A DNA stretch of 32,759 nucleotides from NCBI GenBank assembly GCA_035709005.1, contig DASTFB010000033.1, positions 1 through 32,759 of the forward strand. Direction: 5' to 3'. Below are positions 207 through 22,608 of the stretch, piece after piece. Position 1 is the stretch's first letter. Each line of letters begins with the position of its first letter. Position numbers and translations under genes: made by a program. The stretch comes from Candidatus Methylomirabilota bacterium (GTDB lineage Bacteria > Methylomirabilota > Methylomirabilia > Rokubacteriales > CSP1-6). The notes beneath the pieces are model-generated. The model was not told where the DNA came from. It searched no databases and saw only the letters and a program-made list of their open reading frames with translations.

Positions 207-568
207 CGCCTCAGCCCGTCGCGCTCGACGCGCTGCCCCGGATCCCGCGAGACGAGGAGGGGCCGGTGTTCCGGGAGCCGTGGGAGGCCGAGGCCTTCGC
301 CATGGCCGTGCTCCTCCACGAGCGGGGCGTCTTCGCGTGGAAAGAGTTCGCCGAGCGCCTGGCCGCGGAGATCGCTGAGGCCGGGGCCCGGGGCGACGTC
401 GACGATGGCCGGCGCTACTACGAGCACTGGCTGAGCGCGCTGGAGAAGCTGGTGGCCGCCAAGGGGCTGGTTCTCGCCGACGCGCTCAGGACCCGCAAGG
501 ATGAGTGGGATCGCGCCGCCCGGGCGACGCCGCACGGCCAGCCCATCGAGCTGCATCGGCTGGCCTGA
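203..568 (+). CDS. Nitrile hydratase accessory protein
   Basis: This 121-residue protein has the pattern of nitrile hydratase accessory proteins: an N-terminal LPRIPRDEEGPVFREPWEA, then AFAMAVLLHERGVFAWKEF, DDGRRYYEHWLSALEKLV, and a terminal TPHGQPIEL. The family resembles the N-terminal part of the beta subunit and is thought to help insert metal into, or mature, the alpha subunit. The ATG at 203 overlaps the beta-subunit stop (ATGA). A longer in-frame start at 50 would run 150 nt back into the beta-subunit gene and add residues with no family match, so I rejected it. The order beta then accessory is usual for nitrile hydratase operons. Confidence 0.88.
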   Translation: MTPQPVALDALPRIPRDEEGPVFREPWEAEAFAMAVLLHERGVFAWKEFAERLAAEIAEAGARGDVDDGRRYYEHWLSALEKLVAAKGLVLADALRTRKDEWDRAARATPHGQPIELHRLA

Positions 569-2166
569 GCCACTACCCGGCGGCCGCCACGAAGACCGCG
601 AGCCGACGGCGCTTCATCGCGGCGGGCCTGGCCGCGGCCGGAAGCGTCGCCGTGCCGGCCCGGCTTCGCGGGCCCGTCTACGGCCAGCCTTCCGAGACGG
701 CGCGCCCGGCGGTGCCCTGGGGCGTGCAGTGCGGGGAGGCCACGGCGTCGAGCGCGGTGATCTGGAGCGCGACCGATCGCCCGGCCCGCATGCTGGTCGA
801 GTACGCGACCGACGCCCGATTCGGCGGCGCCCGGCGCGTGACGGGCTCCGCCGCTCTCCCCGAGACGGGATACACGGCCCGGGCGCTCCTCACCGATCTG
901 CCGGCCGGACGGGACATCTTCTACCGTGTGGTCTTTCAGGACCTCGGAGATCTCCGAACGCTGAGCGCGCCGGCGAACGGCTCCTTCCGGACGGCGCCGG
1001 CCGACGCGCGCTCGGTGAGCTTCATCTGGTCGGCCGACACGGCGGGCCAGGGCTGGGGGATCAACCCCGAGTGGGGTGGCATGAAGATCTACGCAACGAT
1101 GCGCCGGATGGCCCCCGACTTCTTCGTCCACTGCGGAGACCTGATCTACGCCGACAATCCCATCGAGTCCGAGGTCGCGCTGCCCGATGGACGCGTGTGG
1201 AAGAACTTGACGACGCCCGCGAAGGCCAAGGTGGCTGAGACGCTCGACGAGTTCCGGGGCAACTACACGTACAACCTGATGGACGAGCACGTCCGGCGCT
1301 TCGGGGCCGAGACCGCCCAGTACGTCCAGTGGGATGATCACGAGGTCACCGACAACTGGTACCCGCAACGGCTCCTGGACGACGAACGCTACACGGTGAA
1401 GAGCTGCGCTGTGCTGGCGGCCCGGGCCCGGCGCGCGATGCTGGAGTTCACGCCGCTGGCGCTGGATGCGCGGGACGGCGAACGGCTCTACCGGGCCGTC
1501 CGGCGCGGGCCCTTGCTGGATCTCTTCCTGCTCGACACGCGCAGCTACCGGGGCCCCAACTCCGACGATCAGCAGGCTCGGCTCGGCGATGAGGCGCGCC
1601 TGCTGGGTGCGGCCCAGAGCCGCTGGCTCGAGCAGGAGCTGCGCGCATCGCGAGCGACCTGGAAGGTGATCGTCGCCGCCGCGCCGCTCGGCCTCATCAT
1701 CCACCACGACTGGCGCCGCCGGTGGGGTTCCGACGGCGTCGCTCAGGGCGACGGCCCGCCGCGGGGGCGGGAGCTGGAGATCGCCGATCTCCTCCGCTTC
1801 ATCAAGGACAATGCCGTCCGCAACGTGGTCTGGATCACGGCCGACGTGCACTACTGCGCGACCCACCGGTACGAGCCCGCCCGGGCCCGGTTCACGGAGT
1901 TCACGCCGTTCTACGAGTTCGTCTCCGGGCCCCTGCACGCCGGGGGATTCGGCCCCAACGCGCTCGACGACACCTTCGGCCCCCGGGTGGTGTTCGCCCG
2001 GCCCCCCGCCCGCGTCAACGCGCCCCCCACCGAGGGCGGTCTCTATTTCGGCCACGTCGCGATCGACGGCCGCAGCGGGGTGATGACGGTCAGCCACCGC
2101 GATGTCGCCGGCGCCGTCCTTCACCAGGCCCGGCTCGTCCCGGAGGGGCCGGCGGCGCGGAGCTAG
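505..2166 (+). CDS. phoD: PhoD-like alkaline phosphatase/phosphodiesterase, Tat-exported
   Basis: The product is a metallophosphoesterase of the PhoD family. It has a twin-arginine signal (SRRRFIAAGL at about residues 33-42), an N-terminal Fn3-like domain with WGVQCGEATASSAVIW, and the catalytic motifs HCGDLIYAD, DDHEVTDNW, DTRSYRGPN and ITADVHYCATHRY. Family members hydrolyse phosphate mono- and diesters in the periplasm, usually with Ca and Fe. The start is uncertain. GTG 505 overlaps the accessory gene by 64 nt and has a closely spaced AAGGA at 497-501. No ATG, GTG or TTG lies between the upstream stop and the Tat motif; a CTG at 565 is the only later choice. The stop TAG shares the palindrome CTAG (2163-2166) with the convergent beta-barrel gene. 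It is probably cotranscribed with the nitrile hydratase genes, though no functional link is evident. Confidence 0.85.
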   Translation: MGSRRPGDAARPAHRAASAGLSHYPAAATKTASRRRFIAAGLAAAGSVAVPARLRGPVYGQPSETARPAVPWGVQCGEATASSAVIWSATDRPARMLVEYATDARFGGARRVTGSAALPETGYTARALLTDLPAGRDIFYRVVFQDLGDLRTLSAPANGSFRTAPADARSVSFIWSADTAGQGWGINPEWGGMKIYATMRRMAPDFFVHCGDLIYADNPIESEVALPDGRVWKNLTTPAKAKVAETLDEFRGNYTYNLMDEHVRRFGAETAQYVQWDDHEVTDNWYPQRLLDDERYTVKSCAVLAARARRAMLEFTPLALDARDGERLYRAVRRGPLLDLFLLDTRSYRGPNSDDQQARLGDEARLLGAAQSRWLEQELRASRATWKVIVAAAPLGLIIHHDWRRRWGSDGVAQGDGPPRGRELEIADLLRFIKDNAVRNVVWITADVHYCATHRYEPARARFTEFTPFYEFVSGPLHAGGFGPNALDDTFGPRVVFARPPARVNAPPTEGGLYFGHVAIDGRSGVMTVSHRDVAGAVLHQARLVPEGPAARS

Positions 2167-2849
2167 AACCGGATGGAGACCCCCATCAGGATGTGGTGGG
2201 TGTTGAGCTTCGTGTCCACCCGCTCCTCGATCGGGCCGAAGTCGGAGTCCTCGTCGGTGTCGATCGGCAGGTAAGTGAAGCGGTACTCGGTGAACACGCC
2301 CACGCGGGGGTGGAACTGCCAGGCCAGGCCGGCCCGGACGTCCAGGCCGAGCTCGACCGAGTCGAAGCGCAGCTTGCGCGCGAGCTCCGGACGGAAATCC
2401 ACGGTTGTGTCGTAGTAGGCGATCGACGGCCCCACACCGACGTACGGCTGCAGCCGTCCTCGGGGGATCTCGTCGGTGGCCAAGAGCGGCAGTCGGAACA
2501 TCACCAGCACCGAGAACGGCACGATCCGGAACCGCACGTCGGCGGCGTCCGCCTCGAAGGTCGACAGGTCCCCGGCAACCCCGAGCCAGGGGACCGGGTC
2601 GATCCAGTAGCCGCCCCGCACGCCGAAGGTGGCCGACAGGTCGAAGTCCGCGTTCCGGGTCGCCTCCGTCTCGGGGCCGCAGACGGCGAAGAAGAACCCC
2701 ACGTCGCAGTCACGCTGTCCCGCGGTCACCCGCGCCGACTCCGTCTGGGCCGCACCGCCGTACAGGTCGAGGAAGGGCTCGGCCAAGGCAGGACGGCCGC
2801 CGAGTAGCACTGCACCGGCGGCGAGGATACCCGCGAGCAGGATGGGCAT
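2163..2849 (-). CDS. Outer-membrane beta-barrel protein (OmpA/OprF-porin-like fold, function unknown)
   Basis: This is a 228-residue exported protein. An N-terminal signal peptide (MPILLAGILAAGAVLLGG, then an ALA-E cleavage-like site) is followed by alternating hydrophobic strands such as PFLDLYGGAAQ, TFGVRGGYWIDP, LQPYVGVGPSIAYYD and VGVFTEYRFTYLP. The chain ends in the aromatic SIRF, typical of beta-barrels handled by the BAM machinery. Its size fits an eight-stranded barrel. ATG 2849 is chosen because it directly precedes the signal peptide; the open frame continues far upstream only because of high GC. It carries two cysteines (CDVGFFFAVC) that could form an extracellular-loop disulfide. 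Its role is unknown, and it stands alone between convergent phoD and divergent neighbours. Confidence 0.75.
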   Translation of the reverse strand: MPILLAGILAAGAVLLGGRPALAEPFLDLYGGAAQTESARVTAGQRDCDVGFFFAVCGPETEATRNADFDLSATFGVRGGYWIDPVPWLGVAGDLSTFEADAADVRFRIVPFSVLVMFRLPLLATDEIPRGRLQPYVGVGPSIAYYDTTVDFRPELARKLRFDSVELGLDVRAGLAWQFHPRVGVFTEYRFTYLPIDTDEDSDFGPIEERVDTKLNTHHILMGVSIRF

Positions 2850-2904
2850 GACCCTGATGCCACGATCCTGCGCCGGGCTGCCGCGAGGGGTCAAGGAATT
2901 GTTG

Positions 2905-2910
2905 TACACT
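2905..2910 (+). promoter_or_regulatory. Putative -10 hexamer, leaderless start
   Basis: TACACT lies 8 nt before the ATG at 2919, and no Shine-Dalgarno sequence fits between them. This places the expected transcription start at or next to the start codon. No convincing -35 element is visible. The same arrangement occurs before several other genes in the window. Confidence 0.45.
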
Positions 2911-2918
2911 CCCGTCCC

Positions 2919-3968
2919 ATGAAGTTCTCGCTCCAGCTGCTGCTGACGTTGCGGGACACTCAGACGCACGGCGAGGTGTACGCGCATGCCCTGGAGGAAG
3001 CCCGGCTGGCCGAAGCCGTGGGCTTCGATGCCGTGTGGCTGGCCGAGCATCACTTCTCCCCCTACGGGATCTGCCCGTCCCTGGGCGTCCTGGCCGCGGC
3101 CATCGCGCGGGAAACGCGCCGGGTGCGCATCGGGACGTCGGTCGTCATCGCGCCCTTCGCTCACCCGCTGCGCATCGCCGAAGAGTGGGCCATGGTCGAC
3201 ATCCTCTCCGAGGGGCGGCTGGAGTTCGGGCTGGGCCGGGGCTACCAGCCCAAGGAGTTCGCCGGGCTCGGGATCTCCATGGAGCACACGCGGGAGCGCT
3301 TCGAGGAGTGCATGGAGGTGATCCGCCGCGCGTGGACCGAGGAGCGCGTCGTCTTCGACGGCCGGTTCTACCAGGTGCCGGGGATCACCGTGTTCCCCAA
3401 GCCGCTCCAGCGACCGCACCCCCCGCTGTGGACGGCCGCGGTCTCCCCCGACACGTACCGCCTGGCTGCCCGGCGCGGCTTCAAGATCCTGACGGCACCC
3501 TCGTTCACGCCCTGGGAAATCTTGAGAAAGAACTACGATGCCTATCTGGACGAGTGGCGGGCGGCTCACGGCGGCGACGGCGGAGCCGAGATCGCCATGA
3601 ACAAGATCATCTACGTGGCCGAGTCGTCCCGGCGGGCCCGCGAAGAGCTCCGGGAGCCGATCCGCTGGTTCTTCGCCACGCAGGCCGGGCTCATCGCCGA
3701 CGCCGAGGGCGTGCCCCCCGACCAGTACCGATTCTATCGCCGCGTGCGCGAGAACCTGCTGGCCTTGACCGACGAGCAGGCGCTGGACCAGGCGGCCATC
3801 GCCGGCGACGCCGAGGAAGTCGCCGACAAGATCCGGGCCCACCACGAGGCGCTGGGGATCACGCACTTCATGGGCTCCTTTTCGCGCGGCATGGCGGATC
3901 AGGCCGCGGTGTTACGCTCCATGCGCCTGTTCGGGGAGAAGGTCCTCCCGCGCTTCGCCGGCGCCTGA
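2919..3968 (+). CDS. LLM-class (luciferase-like) flavin-dependent oxidoreductase
   Basis: The 349-residue protein is a bacterial-luciferase-like TIM barrel. Recognisable elements are AEAVGFDAVWLAEHHFSPYG (residues 31-50, with the EHHF motif), IGTSVVIAPFAHPLRIAEEW, GRLEFGLGRGYQPKEF and the C-terminal gating region around ITHFMGSF. Members use reduced FMN or F420 to oxidise organic substrates; the exact cofactor and substrate cannot be read from the sequence. The ATG at 2919 gives the standard MKFSLQLLLT strand 1. The esterase gene follows after 12 nt on the same strand, so the two probably share a transcript. Such oxidoreductases are often numerous in soil bacteria with broad catabolic ability. 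Confidence 0.88.
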   Translation: MKFSLQLLLTLRDTQTHGEVYAHALEEARLAEAVGFDAVWLAEHHFSPYGICPSLGVLAAAIARETRRVRIGTSVVIAPFAHPLRIAEEWAMVDILSEGRLEFGLGRGYQPKEFAGLGISMEHTRERFEECMEVIRRAWTEERVVFDGRFYQVPGITVFPKPLQRPHPPLWTAAVSPDTYRLAARRGFKILTAPSFTPWEILRKNYDAYLDEWRAAHGGDGGAEIAMNKIIYVAESSRRAREELREPIRWFFATQAGLIADAEGVPPDQYRFYRRVRENLLALTDEQALDQAAIAGDAEEVADKIRAHHEALGITHFMGSFSRGMADQAAVLRSMRLFGEKVLPRFAGA

Positions 3969-3980
3969 TCGCACCACCCC

Positions 3981-4658
3981 GTGGCTGACCTGCGCGAGAC
4001 CGTCGAGATCGAGACGGGCCGGGCGCCGCAAGCCGCCGTCATCTGGTTGCACGGCCTCGGCGCCGACGGTCACGACTTCGAGCCGATCGTACCCGAGCTC
4101 GACCTGCCCCCCACCGTGCCCGTCCGGTTCGTGTTCCCCCACGCGCCACTCCGCGCGGTGACGGTCAACGCCGGCATGGTCATGCGGGCCTGGTACGACG
4201 TGCGCGACGCCGGTGGCGAGCGGCGGGAGGACGCGGCAGGCGTGCGCGCCTCGGGCGAGCGGATCGAGGCGCTCATCGCCCGCGAGCGGTCGCGGGGGGT
4301 GCCGGCCGCCCGGATTGTGCTGGCCGGCTTCTCGCAGGGCGGGGCCATGGCGCTGCACACCGGGTTACGCCACGGCGAGCGTCTGGCCGGCATCCTGGCG
4401 CTATCCTGTTTCCTGCCTCTGGCCGACACGCTGGCCGCCGAGGCCAGCGCGGCCAACCGCGACACGCCGATCTTCCTGGCCCACGGTACCCACGACCCGC
4501 TGATCCCCCTCGCTCGCGCCCGGCGCGCGAAGGCGGTGCTCGAGAGCCTGGGCTATCTGGTGGAGTGGCGGGAGTACGCCATGCCCCACGCCGTGTGCGC
4601 CGAGGAGATCGCCGACATCGCGGGCTGGCTGCGCCGGGTCCTGACCGGGCCGGCGTGA
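3981..4658 (+). CDS. Carboxylesterase/phospholipase family alpha/beta hydrolase
   Basis: This 225-residue protein matches the small bacterial carboxylesterase/acyl-protein-thioesterase-like family. Visible features are the oxyanion loop VIWLHGLGADGHDF, the nucleophile elbow GFSQGG (Ser118), the acid in HGTHDPLIP (Asp172) and the base in MPHAVCAEEI (His203), so the triad is complete and normally spaced. The usual length of about 220 residues agrees. It should hydrolyse short acyl esters in the cytoplasm. Translation starts at GTG 3981, 12 nt after the oxidoreductase stop. Its stop overlaps the GTG of the next hydrolase gene (4655) by 4 nt, indicating a coupled operon. Confidence 0.87.
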   Translation: MADLRETVEIETGRAPQAAVIWLHGLGADGHDFEPIVPELDLPPTVPVRFVFPHAPLRAVTVNAGMVMRAWYDVRDAGGERREDAAGVRASGERIEALIARERSRGVPAARIVLAGFSQGGAMALHTGLRHGERLAGILALSCFLPLADTLAAEASAANRDTPIFLAHGTHDPLIPLARARRAKAVLESLGYLVEWREYAMPHAVCAEEIADIAGWLRRVLTGPA

Positions 4659-6091
4659 GCGTTCCCGTCGTCCTGCTCCACGGCTACTCCGACGCCGGTC
4701 CCTCCTTTCGCGCCTGGCGCGAGGTGCTGAGCGCCCACGGTTACAGCCCGCGCCGCGTGCACGTGAGCACCTACAAGACTCTCACCAACGAGGTGACCAT
4801 CCGCGATCTGGCCGAGGCCTTCGATCGCGCGCTGCGCCTGGAAGCCGGGCTGGGCGACGATCAGGCCTTCGACGCCATCGTGCACTCGACCGGCATGCTG
4901 GTCATCCGCGCCTGGCTCACCCAGTACGGCGGCCGCGCACGTCGGCTCAAGCGTCTGGTGGGACTGGCTCCCGCCACCTGGGGTTCGCCGCTGGCCCACA
5001 AGGGCCGCTCCTGGATGGGCGCGATCTTCAAAGGCAACAAGGACCTGGTCGCTCCCGACTTCCTGGAAGCGGGCGACGCCGTCCTCGATGCGCTGGAGCT
5101 GGGGAGCCGCTTCACCTGGGACCTGGCCAGCCTGGACCTGCTCGGCCCCGATGTCTACTACGGTCCCGACGGCCGGACCCCGTGGGTCTTCATCGTGTGC
5201 GGCATCGAGTCGTATTCGGGGCTGCGCGCGGTCGTCAACGCCCCGGGCACCGACGGCACCGTCCGGTGGGCAGGCTGCGCGCTGAACACGCGCAAGATCG
5301 TCCTCGACCTCACCCGCGCCCCCCGGCGGCGGGCGGCCCGGGACCGGGCCCTCATCGCTCCGTGGCGCCACGTCGACAGCCCGCTCGTGCCCATCGCCGG
5401 CGTCAACCACGGGACGATCCTGACCCAACCCGCCAAGGGCGACGGGCTCGTGGATCTCGTGCTGCGCGCGCTCACCGTGTCGACCCGCCGGGAGTACGAG
5501 GCCTGGCAGGCCGCCGCGGCCCGGCGCACGGCGGCGGCCCGGGCTCAGCTGCGCGACGAGCGGGGCGAGTGGCAACAGTTCGTGGTGCGCGCCCTGGACG
5601 AGCGCGGAGATCCCATCCCCGACTACCACCTGCAGCTGGTGACGCGCGACGAGAACCCCTTGCGGGAGACGGCCGCCTTCGAGACCGAGGTGCACGCCTA
5701 CCAGACGGACCCCAGCTTTCGCTGCTTTCATCTCGACCTGCGCCGGCTCCGGCGGATCGACCGTGGCCGGCTTCGGGTCCGCGTGCTCGCCTCGTCGGGC
5801 TCGACGCTGGTCACCTATACCGGCTTCGGAAGCGAGAAGCTCACCGCCGCCGGAGCCCAGGCCGACGGCAAGTGGGACGCCCAGCTCGACATGGGGCGGG
5901 TGCTGGGCGACGAGCGGGTGAAGCTCTTCTATCCGCTCACCACGACGATGCTCGAGCTGCGGCTGGACCGCGAGCCGCTGCCCCTCGGCACCCGCACGCC
6001 GCCCGCGATCTTCCGCTTCGTCGGCCTCGACGCCCTCCCTCCGCCGCCCCCGCCGCCGCGCGTGGATCCCGACCGCATCCAGGCGCCGTGA
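4655..6091 (+). CDS. Lipase-like alpha/beta hydrolase with C-terminal extension
   Basis: The 478-residue protein opens with an oxyanion-type motif VVLLHGYSDAGPSF. Its nucleophile elbow is HSTGM (Ser78) instead of the commoner GHSxG. A PGTDGTVRWAGC segment and AGVNHGTIL (candidate catalytic His) follow, as in lipases and PHB-depolymerase-like proteins. From about residue 300 a non-catalytic beta-rich region follows, and the chain ends in a polyproline stretch near LDALPPPP. No signal peptide or membrane segment is seen. GTG 4655 overlaps the preceding stop by 4 nt (GTGA). Hydrolase activity on an ester is well supported; the substrate is not. The C-terminal half may be a binding domain. It ends 4 nt before the convergent kinase-like gene. 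Confidence 0.72.
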   Translation: MSVPVVLLHGYSDAGPSFRAWREVLSAHGYSPRRVHVSTYKTLTNEVTIRDLAEAFDRALRLEAGLGDDQAFDAIVHSTGMLVIRAWLTQYGGRARRLKRLVGLAPATWGSPLAHKGRSWMGAIFKGNKDLVAPDFLEAGDAVLDALELGSRFTWDLASLDLLGPDVYYGPDGRTPWVFIVCGIESYSGLRAVVNAPGTDGTVRWAGCALNTRKIVLDLTRAPRRRAARDRALIAPWRHVDSPLVPIAGVNHGTILTQPAKGDGLVDLVLRALTVSTRREYEAWQAAAARRTAAARAQLRDERGEWQQFVVRALDERGDPIPDYHLQLVTRDENPLRETAAFETEVHAYQTDPSFRCFHLDLRRLRRIDRGRLRVRVLASSGSTLVTYTGFGSEKLTAAGAQADGKWDAQLDMGRVLGDERVKLFYPLTTTMLELRLDREPLPLGTRTPPAIFRFVGLDALPPPPPPPRVDPDRIQAP

Positions 6092-6095
6092 CGCT

Positions 6096-6803
6096 CTACA
6101 CCAGCGGCCAGGGGTAGCGGTAGGCGCCGTCGTCCTCGGGGAAGCGAGCGGCCTTGACCAGCGCGCGCGCCCGCCTCAGCAGGGCCTGCCGCTCGAGCGG
6201 GTCGAGCAGCTCGGCCAGGGCGGCGGGCAGTCCCGCCCGTTGCAGGCGCCTGACGTCGCCGAGGATCGGGCCCGGGACCGCCGTGCCGCCGAAGTCCCAG
6301 ATGACGGTGCGGAGCTTGGGCTCGGCATGAAAGGTCAGCGCGTTGTCGATGGCCCAGATCCGGCCGTCCGGCCCCAGCAGGCAGTGACCGCTCTTGCGGT
6401 CGGCGTTGTTGGCGAGCAGATCGAAGGCGCAGATCCGCTGCAGCCGGTCCTGGTGGCTCTCCGCTTCCCGTAGCGTGAAATAGTGCTCGGCGAAATCGGC
6501 CTGCACGAATTCCTGAAGCGACCCCTCGCCGAACGGTCCCTCGCGCAACACGGTGGGCGGCACGACGGCCCAGCCCAGCGCCTGGGACAGCTCCCAGGCC
6601 GCGACCTCGCGACGGAACAGGCTGGGTGGAAAATCCCACAGCGGCCGCTCGCCGCGGCCCGGCTTGTAGACGGCGAGCAGTGCCGTCCCTCCGGCCGTCA
6701 CCTCGACGAGGTATGTCGCGTTGCTGCTGCGGGGCATCCGTCCCCGCACCGTGATCTCGCCGCGGGCGAGCAGCTCCAGCGTCTCAGCGGTGGAGGTGCC
6801 CAT
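6096..6803 (-). CDS. SCO1664-family PI3/4-kinase-like protein
   Basis: The 235-residue protein resembles the SCO1664 family, known mostly from Actinobacteria and Chloroflexi and distantly related to phosphatidylinositol 3/4-kinases and HipA-like kinases. Kinase-type elements are a nucleotide-binding lysine in LLAVYKPGRGERPLWDFP, a catalytic loop FDLLANNADRKSGHCLL (D, N, D and R present) and a metal-binding IWAIDNALTFH. The substrate is unknown. It is the last gene of a probable five-gene run. ATG 6803 lies inside the end of the DUF3090 gene (20-nt overlap). Homologues elsewhere sit beside DUF3090 and a histidine phosphatase exactly as here, so the three very likely act together. Confidence 0.8.
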   Translation of the reverse strand: MGTSTAETLELLARGEITVRGRMPRSSNATYLVEVTAGGTALLAVYKPGRGERPLWDFPPSLFRREVAAWELSQALGWAVVPPTVLREGPFGEGSLQEFVQADFAEHYFTLREAESHQDRLQRICAFDLLANNADRKSGHCLLGPDGRIWAIDNALTFHAEPKLRTVIWDFGGTAVPGPILGDVRRLQRAGLPAALAELLDPLERQALLRRARALVKAARFPEDDGAYRYPWPLV

Positions 6804-7380
6804 TGCTACGGGGACAGACGTGTCCGGACGGATCCATGGGCAAGGCGCAGAGCACGCACTCCGGGCGGCCCGCTTCCATGAGCTCGCGGGCCCGCTCCAC
6901 GAAGGCCGCGGCCTGGGCCCGGGTGATGAGAAAGCGGGCCCGGGCCCCGGCCTCCTCGGCGGCTTCGGCCTCGGCGGTGGCTTCGCCGGCCACGCTGACC
7001 TCGGCCTCGAGCCCGGGCTCTTCGGGCTCGGCCTCGCCCTCGACGGGATCCTCGGCCTCGTCCTCGATGAGCTCGCGCGCCTCCACGACGATCCGATCGC
7101 CATCGGCGTCGTAGCCGGCGGCGATCGAGCGCACCGCCCAGGCCGGCTCCAGGGGCTGCAGGAGCGTGGCCTCGGGCGGCGCCTCGCTCGTCGCGGTCGC
7201 CAGGCTGGCCAGGAGCGTCGCGAGGTACTCGCCGAGCGCCCGGACCTGCTCCTTCTCGCACTTCAGGGTGCAGACCTGGCCATGCTGCCGACCCTGCATG
7301 TAGAAGACGCGCTGGCCCGGCTCGCCGACGGCGCCGGCGGTGAAGTGATCGGGATTGTCGAGCTCGAACGAGTCGCTCAC
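6784..7380 (-). CDS. DUF3090 family protein with C-terminal Cys cluster
   Basis: This 198-residue protein matches DUF3090: an N-terminal FELDNPDHFTAGAVGEPGQ and RVFYMQGRQHGQVCTLKCEK, a middle part ending ARFLITRAQAAAFVERAREL, and a tail with CVLCALPMDPSGHVCPR that looks like a small metal-binding knuckle. Between them, around residues 105-140, is an acidic Glu/Ala-rich linker. No enzymatic function is known for the family. GTG 7380 overlaps the stop of the histidine phosphatase by 4 nt (GTGA), and the 3' end overlaps the kinase-like gene. In Actinobacteria the phosphatase, this family and the SCO1664 family form a conserved triad. Confidence 0.82.
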   Translation of the reverse strand: MSDSFELDNPDHFTAGAVGEPGQRVFYMQGRQHGQVCTLKCEKEQVRALGEYLATLLASLATATSEAPPEATLLQPLEPAWAVRSIAAGYDADGDRIVVEARELIEDEAEDPVEGEAEPEEPGLEAEVSVAGEATAEAEAAEEAGARARFLITRAQAAAFVERARELMEAGRPECVLCALPMDPSGHVCPRSNGHLHR

Positions 7381-17458: not shown

Positions 17459-17465
17459 TATTATG
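17459..17465. promoter_or_regulatory. Overlapping divergent -10 elements (msrA / CNNM gene)
   Basis: The same AT block reads TATTAT on the plus strand (17459-17464) and CATAAT on the minus strand (17465-17460), each matching five of six -10 consensus bases. The minus-strand element lies 6 nt before ATG 17453, which predicts a leaderless mRNA. The plus-strand element leaves a leader of about 12 nt carrying the msrA ribosome site. No good -35 is seen for either. Confidence 0.5.
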
Positions 17466-17470
17466 TGGGG

Positions 17471-17477
17471 GGAGGAG
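17471..17477 (+). promoter_or_regulatory. Ribosome binding site deciding the msrA start
   Basis: GGAGGAG is a strong Shine-Dalgarno sequence 5 nt before ATG 17483. It supports this start over the in-frame GTG at 17465, which lies upstream of the site. Confidence 0.7.
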
Positions 17478-17482
17478 CCGCC

Positions 17483-18075
<593 letters not shown>

Positions 18076-18079
<4 letters not shown>

Positions 18080-19361: not shown

Positions 19362-20060
19362 ATGTCGCAGCTTCACGTGCGCTTCCTCGTGCTCGCCATC
19401 GCCCTCTTGACCTTCGTGCCGACGGCGCCCGCCGCCGGCGGCGAGATCCAGGGCTACGTCGTGCTGGGCGGGCCGGTGCCGCCGGCGAAGAAGGTGCCGG
19501 TGACGATCGACCAGTACGTGTGCGGCAAGGAGAAAGACGCCGGCGACCTCGTCCTGTCGGCCGCCCGCGAAATCCAGAACGTGGTGGTGTGGCTGCAGAA
19601 TCCGCCGCCGGGCGCGCCGTCGCCCGTCGCGGCCTCGACCCCGCAGATGGACCAGAAGGAGTGCGTGTTCGTTCCGCGGGTCGTGCTGGCGCCCGCGGGC
19701 GGGACCGTAGAGTTCCTCAATAGCGATCGGTTGCTGCACAATCTGCACGGCGCGCCCAAAGCGAACAACCCCTTCAACCGCACCCAGCCCAAGGGGCGCA
19801 CGATCGCCATCGCCTTCGCCCGGCCCGAGATCATCCGGATCGATTGCGACCTGCATTCCTGGATGCGGGGCTGGGTGGTGGTCGCCGACCACCCGTTCTA
19901 CGCCATCACCGACGCCACCGGCCGCTTCAAGTTCGACAACGTTCCGCCGGGCCAGTACACGCTGCAAGTGTGGCACGAGCGGCTCGGGCGCCGGACGAGC
20001 ACGCTCACCGTCAGCGGCGACGCCCCCACCCCGGTGAACATCGACCTTCGGGCTCGCTGA
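19362..20060 (+). CDS. Exported cupredoxin-like protein with carboxypeptidase-regulatory-like tail
   Basis: The 232-residue protein has a signal peptide (residues 1-25, LVLAIALLTFVPTAPAAGG). A cupredoxin-like region follows, with ECVFVPRVVLAPAGGTVEFL, NSDRLLHNLHG (first His ligand) and DCDLHSWMRGW, which holds a C-x2-H-x2-M cluster resembling the type I copper ligands of plastocyanins, although the Met is two residues closer to the His than in plastocyanin. A short Fn3/carboxypeptidase-regulatory-like segment (ITDATGRFKFDNVPPGQYTL) ends the chain. It probably acts as a periplasmic electron-transfer or copper-binding protein. ATG 19362 directly precedes the signal peptide. It faces the SORL-like gene across a strong hairpin, and both are exported redox-type proteins. 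Confidence 0.78.
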   Translation: MSQLHVRFLVLAIALLTFVPTAPAAGGEIQGYVVLGGPVPPAKKVPVTIDQYVCGKEKDAGDLVLSAAREIQNVVVWLQNPPPGAPSPVAASTPQMDQKECVFVPRVVLAPAGGTVEFLNSDRLLHNLHGAPKANNPFNRTQPKGRTIAIAFARPEIIRIDCDLHSWMRGWVVVADHPFYAITDATGRFKFDNVPPGQYTLQVWHERLGRRTSTLTVSGDAPTPVNIDLRAR

Positions 20061-20070
20061 ACGCCTTCGA

Positions 20071-20089
20071 GCGGCGGCTTTGCCGCCGC
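20071..20089. repeat. GC-rich hairpin (REP-like or terminator)
   Basis: GCGGCGGC and GCCGCCGC form a perfect 8-bp stem around a TTT loop, 10 nt after the cupredoxin-like stop. There is no T run after it. Together with the stronger hairpin 20 nt downstream it may form a REP-like intergenic element. Confidence 0.5.
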
Positions 20090-20109
20090 AATCCTGTCCG
20101 GGGGAGGCT

Positions 20110-20136
20110 CGGAGGGGGCCGTCGAGGCCCCCTCCG
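20110..20136. terminator. Strong bidirectional hairpin between convergent genes
   Basis: An 11-bp perfect stem (CGGAGGGGGCC / GGCCCCCTCCG, loop GTCGA) stands between the cupredoxin-like gene and the SORL-like gene. ATTAA follows on the plus side. It is the only strong intrinsic-terminator-like structure found in the window and can serve both strands. Confidence 0.7.
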
Positions 20137-20143
20137 ATTAAGA

Positions 20144-20581
20144 TCACGGGGTGACGGCGATCTTCTTGGAGGTCTCCCAGGCGGCCGAGTGAGTGGGCTC
20201 GGCCTGAGCCCGCAGCATCCCGCCCTCGTCGAGCGCGATGGTGAACGTCACCTGGGGCGCCGAGAAGACCGGATGCAGGTACGCGCGGCTGATCTCGACG
20301 CCATCCTTGTAGAGGGCGATGTACCGGATGAAGTGCTCGGCCAGCGAGGGATGCCGATCGCCGGCGCCGATGCTCACGGTGACGTCGAACCACTGGCCCC
20401 GCTTCACCGAGTCCGGCGCCTTGATGGCGGGGGTGTGCTTGGGGTCATAGCTCGACCGGGTCTGTTTGAACTCCGGCGTGAACTGCTCCTCCTGTCCGCC
20501 GTACACCGCCTGGGAGCCGGCGGTGAGCAGCCACACGGCCGCCGTGGCCGCCCCCAACGTTCTCCCGAGTGTCCACCGCAT
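20144..20581 (-). CDS. Exported SORL (desulfoferrodoxin/neelaredoxin-like) protein without cysteine
   Basis: The 145-residue protein has a signal peptide (residues 1-29) and a superoxide-reductase-like domain: KHTPAIKAP, RHPSLAEHFIRYIALYKDG and a tail AAWETSKKIAV that matches the neelaredoxin C-terminal strand. His49, His77 and His83 align with three equatorial iron ligands (the 6-residue spacing is kept), and His131 lies near the fourth. The axial Cys of the CNxHG motif is replaced (Pro129 by ungapped alignment), and the whole protein has no cysteine. It is therefore unlikely to be a normal superoxide reductase; a metal-binding or SoxZ-like carrier role is possible. AGAGGAGG lies 9 nt before ATG 20581. 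It follows the response-regulator gene by 24 nt. Confidence 0.65.
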   Translation of the reverse strand: MRWTLGRTLGAATAAVWLLTAGSQAVYGGQEEQFTPEFKQTRSSYDPKHTPAIKAPDSVKRGQWFDVTVSIGAGDRHPSLAEHFIRYIALYKDGVEISRAYLHPVFSAPQVTFTIALDEGGMLRAQAEPTHSAAWETSKKIAVTP

Positions 20582-20605: not shown

Positions 20606-20980
20606 TCAGTTTTCGGGCACGAACTTGCGGATGAGCGCCAGCAGGTCCCGGGGGCTGTAAGGCTTGGCCAGATAGCCCGAGGCCCCGGCCGCCATGGCCC
20701 GCTGGTCGTCGCCGCTGAGGGCGAACGAGGTCACGACGATGATCGGGATGTCGGCCGTCGCCGGCTCCGCCCGGAGCGCGCGGGTGACGTCCAGCCCCGA
20801 CATGCGCGGCAGCTGGACGTCCATCAACACCAGGTCGGGACGATCCTGGCGGACCAGGGCCATGGCCGCCTCGCCGTCGGGCGCCTCCAGCAGCCGGTAC
20901 GAGGTCCGACTCAACAGCTGGCGCACGATCTTGCGGTTGTACTCGTTGTCCTCCACGTAGAGCACGGTTTTCTGGTTCAT
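20606..20980 (-). CDS. Single-domain response regulator
   Basis: This 124-residue protein is a stand-alone CheY-like receiver. It has the acidic pocket YVEDNE (Glu10, Asp11), the phosphoacceptor Asp54 in [11 protein letters not shown], the switch Thr/Ser in VVTSFALSG and the conserved Lys106 in YLAKPYSP. There is no DNA-binding or enzymatic output domain, so it must act by protein contact or as a phosphorelay intermediate. ATG 20980 overlaps the kinase stop by 4 nt (ATGA), so the two are partners. Such DivK/CheY-like receivers after hybrid-type kinases often feed another output protein not encoded nearby. Confidence 0.92.
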
Positions 20981-22608
20981 GATGCCTTGTCCACCTCCAG
21001 GGGGATGGAAAACCAGAACATCGAGCCCTTGCCCAGTCGACTCTCGACCCCGATGCGTCCGCCGTGCAGCTCGACGAACTTCTTGGTGATGCTGAGCCCC
21101 AGGCCGGTGCCGCCGTACTCCCGGGTGACGGTCGCATCGACCTGCCGGAACTCGCCGAACACGTTCTCCAGCTCCTTCTCCGGAATCCCGATGCCGGTGT
21201 CGGAGACCCGGTAGACCAGGTCGTAGCCCTCCTGGCTCACGCTGATCTCCACGCGGCCCTCCCGGGTGAACTTGATGGCGTTGCCGGCCAGGTTCAGCAG
21301 GCACTGGGTGATGCGCCGGCCGTCGCCGCGGGCCATGGGCAGGTCCGGCGGCACCCGGGTCGCGAATTCCAGCCCCTTCTCGGCGGCCAGCGAGCGCAGC
21401 GAGGCGCGGACCGATTCCACGACGTCGGCCACCGCGTAGGTGTCGACGACCAGCTCCAGGCGACCGGCCTCGATCTTCGAGAGATCGAGGACGTCGTTGA
21501 TCAGCCGGAGCAGGTGCCGGCCGTTGGCCTGGATGTCGGCCAGCGGCTCCCGGAGGTCGGCCGGCACGTCGCCGTACAGGCCATCGAGCAGCATCTCGGT
21601 GAAGCCCAGGATGGCGTTCATCGGGGTCCGCAGCTCGTGGCTCATGTTGGCCAGGAACTCCGATTTGGCCCGGCTGGCCTGCTCCAGGCGCTCGTTCAGG
21701 CGGCGGAGCTCGGCGGCTCCCTGCTCCTGCTCGGCGACCAGACGCTGCAGCTCCCGGCTCATGCGGTTCATCCGCTCCGCCAGGTCCCCGAACTCGTCGC
21801 GGTTGGCGACGCTGATCGTGGTGCCGAGCTCGCCCCCGGTCACCCGGGCCAGGAAGGCGTCGGCTTCGCGGACCGGCAGCACGAACGACCAGGAGATGAC
21901 GAAGCCCAGGATCAGAGCCAGGATGACCGCGGCCACGGCGAAGGAGGCCGCGACCACCAGGGACCGCTGGTTGGCGGCCTCCACCGCGCCACGCAGGCCG
22001 TCCATGCGTGCCTGCTCGGCTTGCACCAGCCGCCCCACGAGGGTTTCGATCTCGCGGTAGACGCGGTCCTCGCGGCCGAGGAGCGCGGCGCGCGCCTCGT
22101 CCAGGCGCCCGTCGCGAATCGCATTGGCGATGTCCGCCACGGTGGTCATGGCCTCGTCCTGGCGCGTGCGGATCTGCTGGATGAGCTCGCGCTCGGCCGC
22201 TCGGGCGGCGCCTTCCAGCTTGGCCAGCGTGTCGTTGAAGCGGTTGTTCTCGCGCAGGATGCGGGCCACCACCCCCTCGTCGCGCAGCAAGAGGGAGAGC
22301 GCCGTGAAGTGCATCTGCCGGGCCAGGGCGCGCTCGATGTCCTGTGCCCAGTGCACCCGCTGGTGCGCCTCGTCGAGCAGGCGGCTCTGCTCGACCATGC
22401 GCGCGATGGTCTGCAAGCTGATCGCGGCCAGCCCGATGAACAGCAGGGCGGTGAGCAGGAACGCCACCACCAGCTTGGTGTGGACGGAGGCCCGCCAGCG
22501 CGCCACCCAGTCCACCAGGCGGCCGATCGGGCTGCGGGTGAGCAGGAAGGCCACCACCGGGTTGAGCTGCCTGCCCGGGCGACTGCCCTGGAGTGCCGGC
22601 CCTCTCAT
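20977..22608 (-). CDS. Membrane sensor histidine kinase
   Basis: The 543-residue kinase has two transmembrane helices (about residues 46-65 and 217-244) flanking a helical, four-helix-bundle-like periplasmic sensor of about 150 residues. A HAMP domain (from Pro245, with [13 protein letters not shown]), a coiled linker, a HisKA domain with [14 protein letters not shown] (His324) and a HATPase domain (N box [12 protein letters not shown]1 DTGIGIP, G2 GGTGLGLSI) follow. The sensor contains methionine- and charge-rich helices but no recognisable ligand pocket. ATG 22608 has TATCAT 8 nt upstream. It is the first gene of the run kinase, receiver, SORL-like protein, so the SORL-like gene is likely expressed with its signalling system. 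Confidence 0.93.

Follow-up and report, generated by a model that had tools for sequence, protein, structure and literature searches.

Genes and features of the locus

Within the window, a stretch of 32,759 nucleotides from the genome of a Candidatus Methylomirabilota bacterium, lies a gene for an exported, Cys-free SORL (Desulfoferrodoxin-domain) protein, whose coordinates, strand and product had been correctly given in a preliminary description of this DNA (Table 1). The gene is the last of an operon that also encodes a histidine kinase and a response regulator, and it converges on a gene for an exported cupredoxin. Neither the linkage to a type-1 copper protein nor the operon with kinase and regulator genes, the two strongest facts about the locus, appears in the preliminary description. 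At a distance of 1.3 kb from the cupredoxin gene is one for a peptide methionine sulfoxide reductase (PF01625; positions 17465-18079, plus strand), which was not seen linked to SORL at other loci.

Table 1. Coordinates of the SORL gene, its neighbors and the residues discussed in the text (positions in the window).
Feature	Position	Strand	Basis or remark
Exported cupredoxin with C-terminal carboxypeptidase-regulatory-like domain, convergent to SORL	19362..20060	+	alignment, AlphaFold2, Foldseek
His126, predicted type-1 Cu ligand of cupredoxin	19737..19739	+	invariant in 21 of 21
C162-x2-H165-x2-M168 (CDLHSWM, amicyanin spacing), predicted type-1 Cu ligands	19845..19865	+	invariant in 21 of 21
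Pair of G+C-rich hairpins separating the convergent SORL and cupredoxin genes, probable bidirectional terminator	20061..20143	.	fold-energy z = -4.8 and -4.6
Exported Cys-free SORL (Desulfoferrodoxin-domain) protein	20144..20581	-	145 aa, ATG start, PF01880 match
E128-P129-T130-H131 loop, in place of SOR Y-C-N-[IL]	20189..20200	-	family alignment
His103 (YLHPV), without SOR counterpart	20273..20275	-	family alignment; nearly invariant, not in L051
His83, counterpart of equatorial His of EHH in SOR	20333..20335	-	family alignment; invariant
His77, counterpart of equatorial His of HP in SOR	20351..20353	-	family alignment; invariant
His49, counterpart of equatorial His of KHxP in SOR	20435..20437	-	family alignment; invariant
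Predicted signal peptide, residues 1-28, cut before GQEEQFTPE	20498..20581	-	hydrophobic leader and family-alignment junction
CheY-like response regulator, 124 aa, 24 bp upstream of SORL	20606..20980	-	PF00072, E 3e-29; linkage conserved
Membrane histidine kinase (periplasmic four-helix sensor, HAMP, HisKA, HATPase)	20977..22608	-	overlaps regulator by 4 bp

In Pfam profile searches the SORL protein matched PF01880 (Desulfoferrodoxin) with 65 bits (E 9.7e-18; cutoff 22.2), and the match, of residues 44-137 to positions 4-97 of the 98 in the profile, spans the whole domain. The elements of the SORL scaffold that had been proposed earlier (KHTP, HP-x4-EH and the terminal Trp) are all present. 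By contrast, the protein scored 14.6 bits with the SoxZ profile (PF08770; cutoff 25) and 13.5 bits with the SoxY profile (cutoff 28.4), and with no Cys at all it has no carrier Cys of the SoxY type on a C-terminal Gly-rich arm. Because the NCBIfam neelaredoxin model (TIGR00332, desulfoferrodoxin ferrous iron-binding domain) gives only 27.1 bits against a cutoff of 61.9, the protein is an outlier among the domains of superoxide reductases (SORs).

The protein carries a Sec-type leader and is predicted to be periplasmic: as the preliminary description had it, a signal peptide is indicated by a hydrophobic segment and by a junction kept in most relatives, in which AxA is followed by GQ(E/A)EQ (AVYG followed by GQEEQ in the window copy). 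The export had been held up as a contrast to cytoplasmic neelaredoxins and, while the export itself stands, it is not unusual, since Tat-exported SORs (the TAT-SOR class of SORGOdb) have been predicted (PMC3116461). These too are exported SOR-domain proteins; however, the Tat-exported SORs of loci L095 and L096 retain CNLHG together with all the ligands, whereas in the SORL family the leader is of the Sec type and Cys is absent.

We found about 45 orthologues in total. Relatives (57-76% identity) are encoded in 25 of 95 Methylomirabilota genomes, in 9 of 148 genomes of "Deltaproteobacteria" to which we ourselves have applied the class name Binatia and in 1 of the 250 Burkholderiales genomes sampled, as well as in a single genome of a further small phylum; no plasmid-borne relatives were found. 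The number of orthologues, together with a median dN/dS of 0.14 for the domain, which indicates purifying selection, rules out a pseudogene or random open reading frame. All 18 aligned family members examined match PF01880, and 16 of these also touch SoxY weakly. In a tree with Cys-containing SORs the family forms one clade (support 100/99), the exact sister group of which is unsure owing to long branches, and the SORL protein is probably derived from SOR-like ancestors. The PF01880 matches in Methylomirabilota fall into only two classes, the SORL family (61-73 bits) and longer proteins (24-47 bits) that, where read, are SoxYZ-like fusions; no canonical SOR was suggested among these matches.

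Conserved histidines and a rebuilt SOR metal loop

In the SOR loop Y-C-N-[IL]-H-G-x-W the Cys is the axial ligand and the His an equatorial ligand, and SOR chemistry depends on a Cys trans to the substrate site. The corresponding loop of the SORL family, x-P-[TN]-H-[ST]-x-x-W, is of equal length. At the position of the axial Cys, the loss of which had been noted from the window sequence, every member aligned has Pro, and the position of the fourth equatorial His is taken by Ser or Thr. Indeed, the mature domains of 34 aligned relatives are as free of Cys as the window protein was said to be. The four His residues put forward as equatorial ligands fared differently: His49, His77 and His83 align with SOR ligands and are invariant, whereas His131, although invariant, is out of register in ungapped alignments, lying one residue earlier than the fourth ligand of SORs, and might fall short of the putative metal site. 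His49, His77, His83, Pro129, His131 and Trp135 are retained even in members that are less than 50% identical. (Note that Glu128, an attractive substitute for the axial ligand in the main clade, where E-x-x-H would stand in for C-x-x-H, is excluded from this role by its replacement with Val or Ala in L120 and L121.)

Center II of SORs is Fe(His)4(Cys) (PMC3116461). The SORL protein cannot be classified as a superoxide reductase, the C-N-[IL]-H-G motif of that functional family having Pro in place of its Cys in all members. The canonical SOR mechanism of superoxide reduction is not expected to operate in this protein. It is very improbable, too, that the protein is a variant detoxifying enzyme, in which a His-only Fe or Cu site, drawing electrons from the cupredoxin, would dismutate or reduce superoxide in the periplasm. 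SOR ancestry, the three conserved ligands, the predicted periplasmic location and an aerobic context with terminal oxidase genes speak for such an enzyme; however, the Cys thiolate that defines SORs is missing from every member, and the window genome already encodes an Fe/Mn superoxide dismutase, so that cytoplasmic superoxide defense need not rest on the SORL protein.

Comparison of structures places the domain close to two families at once. The AlphaFold2 model of the SORL domain is of high confidence, and its top Foldseek match is a SOR (4bk8; E 1.6e-9); SoxZ chains follow just behind by E-value, but give the lowest rmsd (1.5-1.9 A) and target TM scores (0.78-0.84) that are higher than those of SORs. 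The model thus predicts a SoxZ-like Ig fold, which is also the fold of SOR. By sequence, SoxZ is ruled out as the better match, which had been named beforehand as a ground for rejecting the SORL reading: the credible PDB matches of the family profile are SORs only, with no SoxZ chain among them. We accordingly exclude SoxZ as an assignment and retain it as a rival at the level of the fold. Among known proteins, the SORL protein shows whole-domain homology (E 3e-13 with a single sequence, 6e-20 with the profile) to class II SORs, or neelaredoxins, such as those of Ignicoccus hospitalis (4brj/4bk8) and Thermotoga maritima (TM0658, 2amu). It shares with them an Ig-like fold, three of the four equatorial His residues, the Lys before the first His and the terminal Trp. 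Unlike them, it has no axial Cys, a fourth His offset by one residue, an extra His at position 103, a shorter loop after Leu90-Tyr91, a signal peptide and a cupredoxin partner. With SoxZ, SoxYZ and the quinoprotein-dehydrogenase-associated SoxYZ-like carrier (TIGR04557) it has in common the superfamily fold and a periplasmic location, and within the phylum related proteins are encoded near a paralogue of the cupredoxin; it differs from SoxZ and SoxYZ in the absence of a carrier Cys arm and in its profile scores.

These likenesses raise the possibility that the protein binds no metal and serves as a scaffold. It would then be an Ig-fold subunit of the SoxZ kind whose task is to dock or position a partner in the periplasm, be it the cupredoxin or another protein, and its His residues would be structural or simply exposed at the surface. 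The close superposition on SoxZ, the rebuilding of the SOR metal loop and the existence of paralogous loci with a SoxYZ-like protein beside a cupredoxin all speak for a scaffold; yet a mere scaffold would not need the three SOR ligand His residues and His131, which remain invariant at low identity, and it is SOR, not SoxZ, that the sequence resembles. We regard a scaffold as unlikely, though it is the main rival to the redox role that we favor.

Linkage to a copper protein and a two-component system

The product of the convergent gene is predicted to be a type-1 copper protein. It has the predicted ligands of such a site (Table 1), its AlphaFold2 model (pLDDT 92) matches CuNIR, amicyanin and plastocyanin in Foldseek, and its profile matches type-1 copper proteins in the PDB. 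The H...C-x2-H-x2-M ligand set and the cupredoxin fold are those of amicyanin and plastocyanin, from which it differs in its extra C-terminal domain; no methylamine dehydrogenase gene was seen adjoining it.

Genes for SORL and an exported amicyanin-like type-1 copper protein are paired in nearly all complete loci. Among the 22 SORL loci with context, the cupredoxin gene is present in 19 and kinase or regulator genes are present in 20. The pair is retained in Methylomirabilota, Burkholderiales, Binatia and L051 despite differences in the other neighbors. In three Binatia loci (L122-L124), for example, the convergent pair is kept between unrelated flanks, annotated in L122 as UvrB/UvrC and pilus genes; we dismiss the link to DNA repair and pili as chance, since only the SORL-cupredoxin island is common to other lineages. 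Conversely, the top cupredoxin subfamily (at least 334 bits) occurs in 24 genomes of the phylum, of which 22 have SORL, a fraction that is favored by the derivation of the cupredoxin profile from SORL neighbors. In the remaining three SORL genomes of the phylum the contig breaks off near the gene; one of these, G035, has a partial cupredoxin gene alongside. The other two genomes, G050 and G051, keep the cupredoxin without SORL, which is thus not indispensable. In G050 (L135, C90), the order of kinase, regulator and cupredoxin genes is the same and SORL is missing between the latter two, a natural deletion. Linkage of the two genes is no proof that their products interact physically.

The linkage of kinase, regulator and SORL genes is likewise found in most Methylomirabilota, in Burkholderiales and in some Binatia loci, and the kinase orthologues encoded upstream of SORL elsewhere are mostly 53-67% identical. 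At some loci an extra regulator gene lies between those for the CheY-like regulator and SORL; that of L033 (4583-5641) carries a fused adenylate/guanylate cyclase domain. The SORL protein might then be a sensory input: by binding a metal or a redox center in the periplasm it would, as a partner of the kinase, inform the regulator or regulator-cyclase of the state of oxidants or metals. The operon itself with its 24-bp spacing, the breadth of the linkage and the cyclase-domain regulator are consistent with such an input. However, L122-L124 and L051 hold SORL and cupredoxin genes without a kinase gene, and G050 holds kinase, regulator and cupredoxin genes without SORL. A sensory role appears improbable.

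Both in L051 and in those parallel loci that we read, genes for respiratory proteins adjoin the pair. L051, whose SORL is the most distant family member, contains an operon (positions 207-7091) that encodes, in order, a Rieske protein, cytochrome b6, a cytochrome b C-terminal protein, a multihaem cytochrome c, a cupredoxin, the Cys-free SORL and a second cupredoxin. In 16 genomes, genes for a cupredoxin paralogue and a SoxYZ-like fusion protein lie about 2.2-2.7 kb apart, and cbb3-type oxidase genes are near this pair in the three loci read, those of the window genome (L131), G003 and G039. Because of these parallel loci, a protein of SOR or SoxY fold and a type-1 copper protein can be considered a recurring pair in the phylum. 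Several of the SoxYZ-like fusions retain a complete SOR-like ligand set, including the Cys.

Loci L131, L132 and L133 contain, in part or in full, genes for sigma/anti-sigma-like proteins, the cupredoxin paralogue, a Tat metallophosphoesterase, a SoxA-like cytochrome, the SoxYZ-like fusion, a cbb3-type oxidase and a CtaG-like protein. In the fusions examined (L131:7640-8458, on C61 of G000; L133:4422-5282; L090, L159, L160, L161, L164 and L165) the SoxY-like half has the SOR-type ligands HxP, HP-x4-H and C-x-x-H-G (ECNLHGKW-like in most), and the same protein also bears a Gly-Cys carrier arm. In the fusion of the window genome the last His is lost (QCTRDGEW).

A possible periplasmic redox partner

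Taken together, the results are best explained, if only tentatively, by a protein of the periplasm that has a modified His-rich metal site and acts as redox partner of the cupredoxin. The SORL protein is a Cys-free member of the SOR/SoxYZ-fold superfamily, predicted to be periplasmic and probably of SOR-like ancestry, the iron loop of which has been remodeled by replacement of the axial Cys with Pro and a shift of the last His by one residue. A redox metal would be held by His49, His77, His83 and probably His131, and electrons would be exchanged with the amicyanin-like protein encoded next to it. The two proteins may form a respiratory side branch or safety valve, and synthesis or activity of SORL may be coupled to the histidine kinase and regulator encoded alongside. 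We favor this redox partner over the scaffold, its main rival, and over the sensor and the variant superoxide enzyme, which come next.

Our searches of the open-access literature found nothing relevant on a Cys-less SORL, or on SORL with a cupredoxin, and as far as these searches show the gene context of the Cys-free SORL has previously gone unremarked. That the gene is paired with one for a copper electron carrier points to a new redox function in the periplasm and away from a classic antioxidant enzyme. It is conceivable, although doubtful, that the locus specifies a new periplasmic redox center, in which the SOR site, rebuilt without its thiolate, has become an all-nitrogen (His) metal site acting together with a type-1 copper protein and the respiratory chain, and controlled by a dedicated two-component system. 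A conserved family of this kind, with most of the equatorial His residues kept, the Cys lost and a copper protein as its partner, would be a natural experiment on the role of the thiolate, and it would show the reuse of one Ig-like scaffold for superoxide reduction, for sulfur carrying (SoxYZ) and possibly for copper-linked electron transfer. For the Rokubacteria, which are known mainly from metagenomes, it provides a concrete and testable lead on their respiratory proteins.
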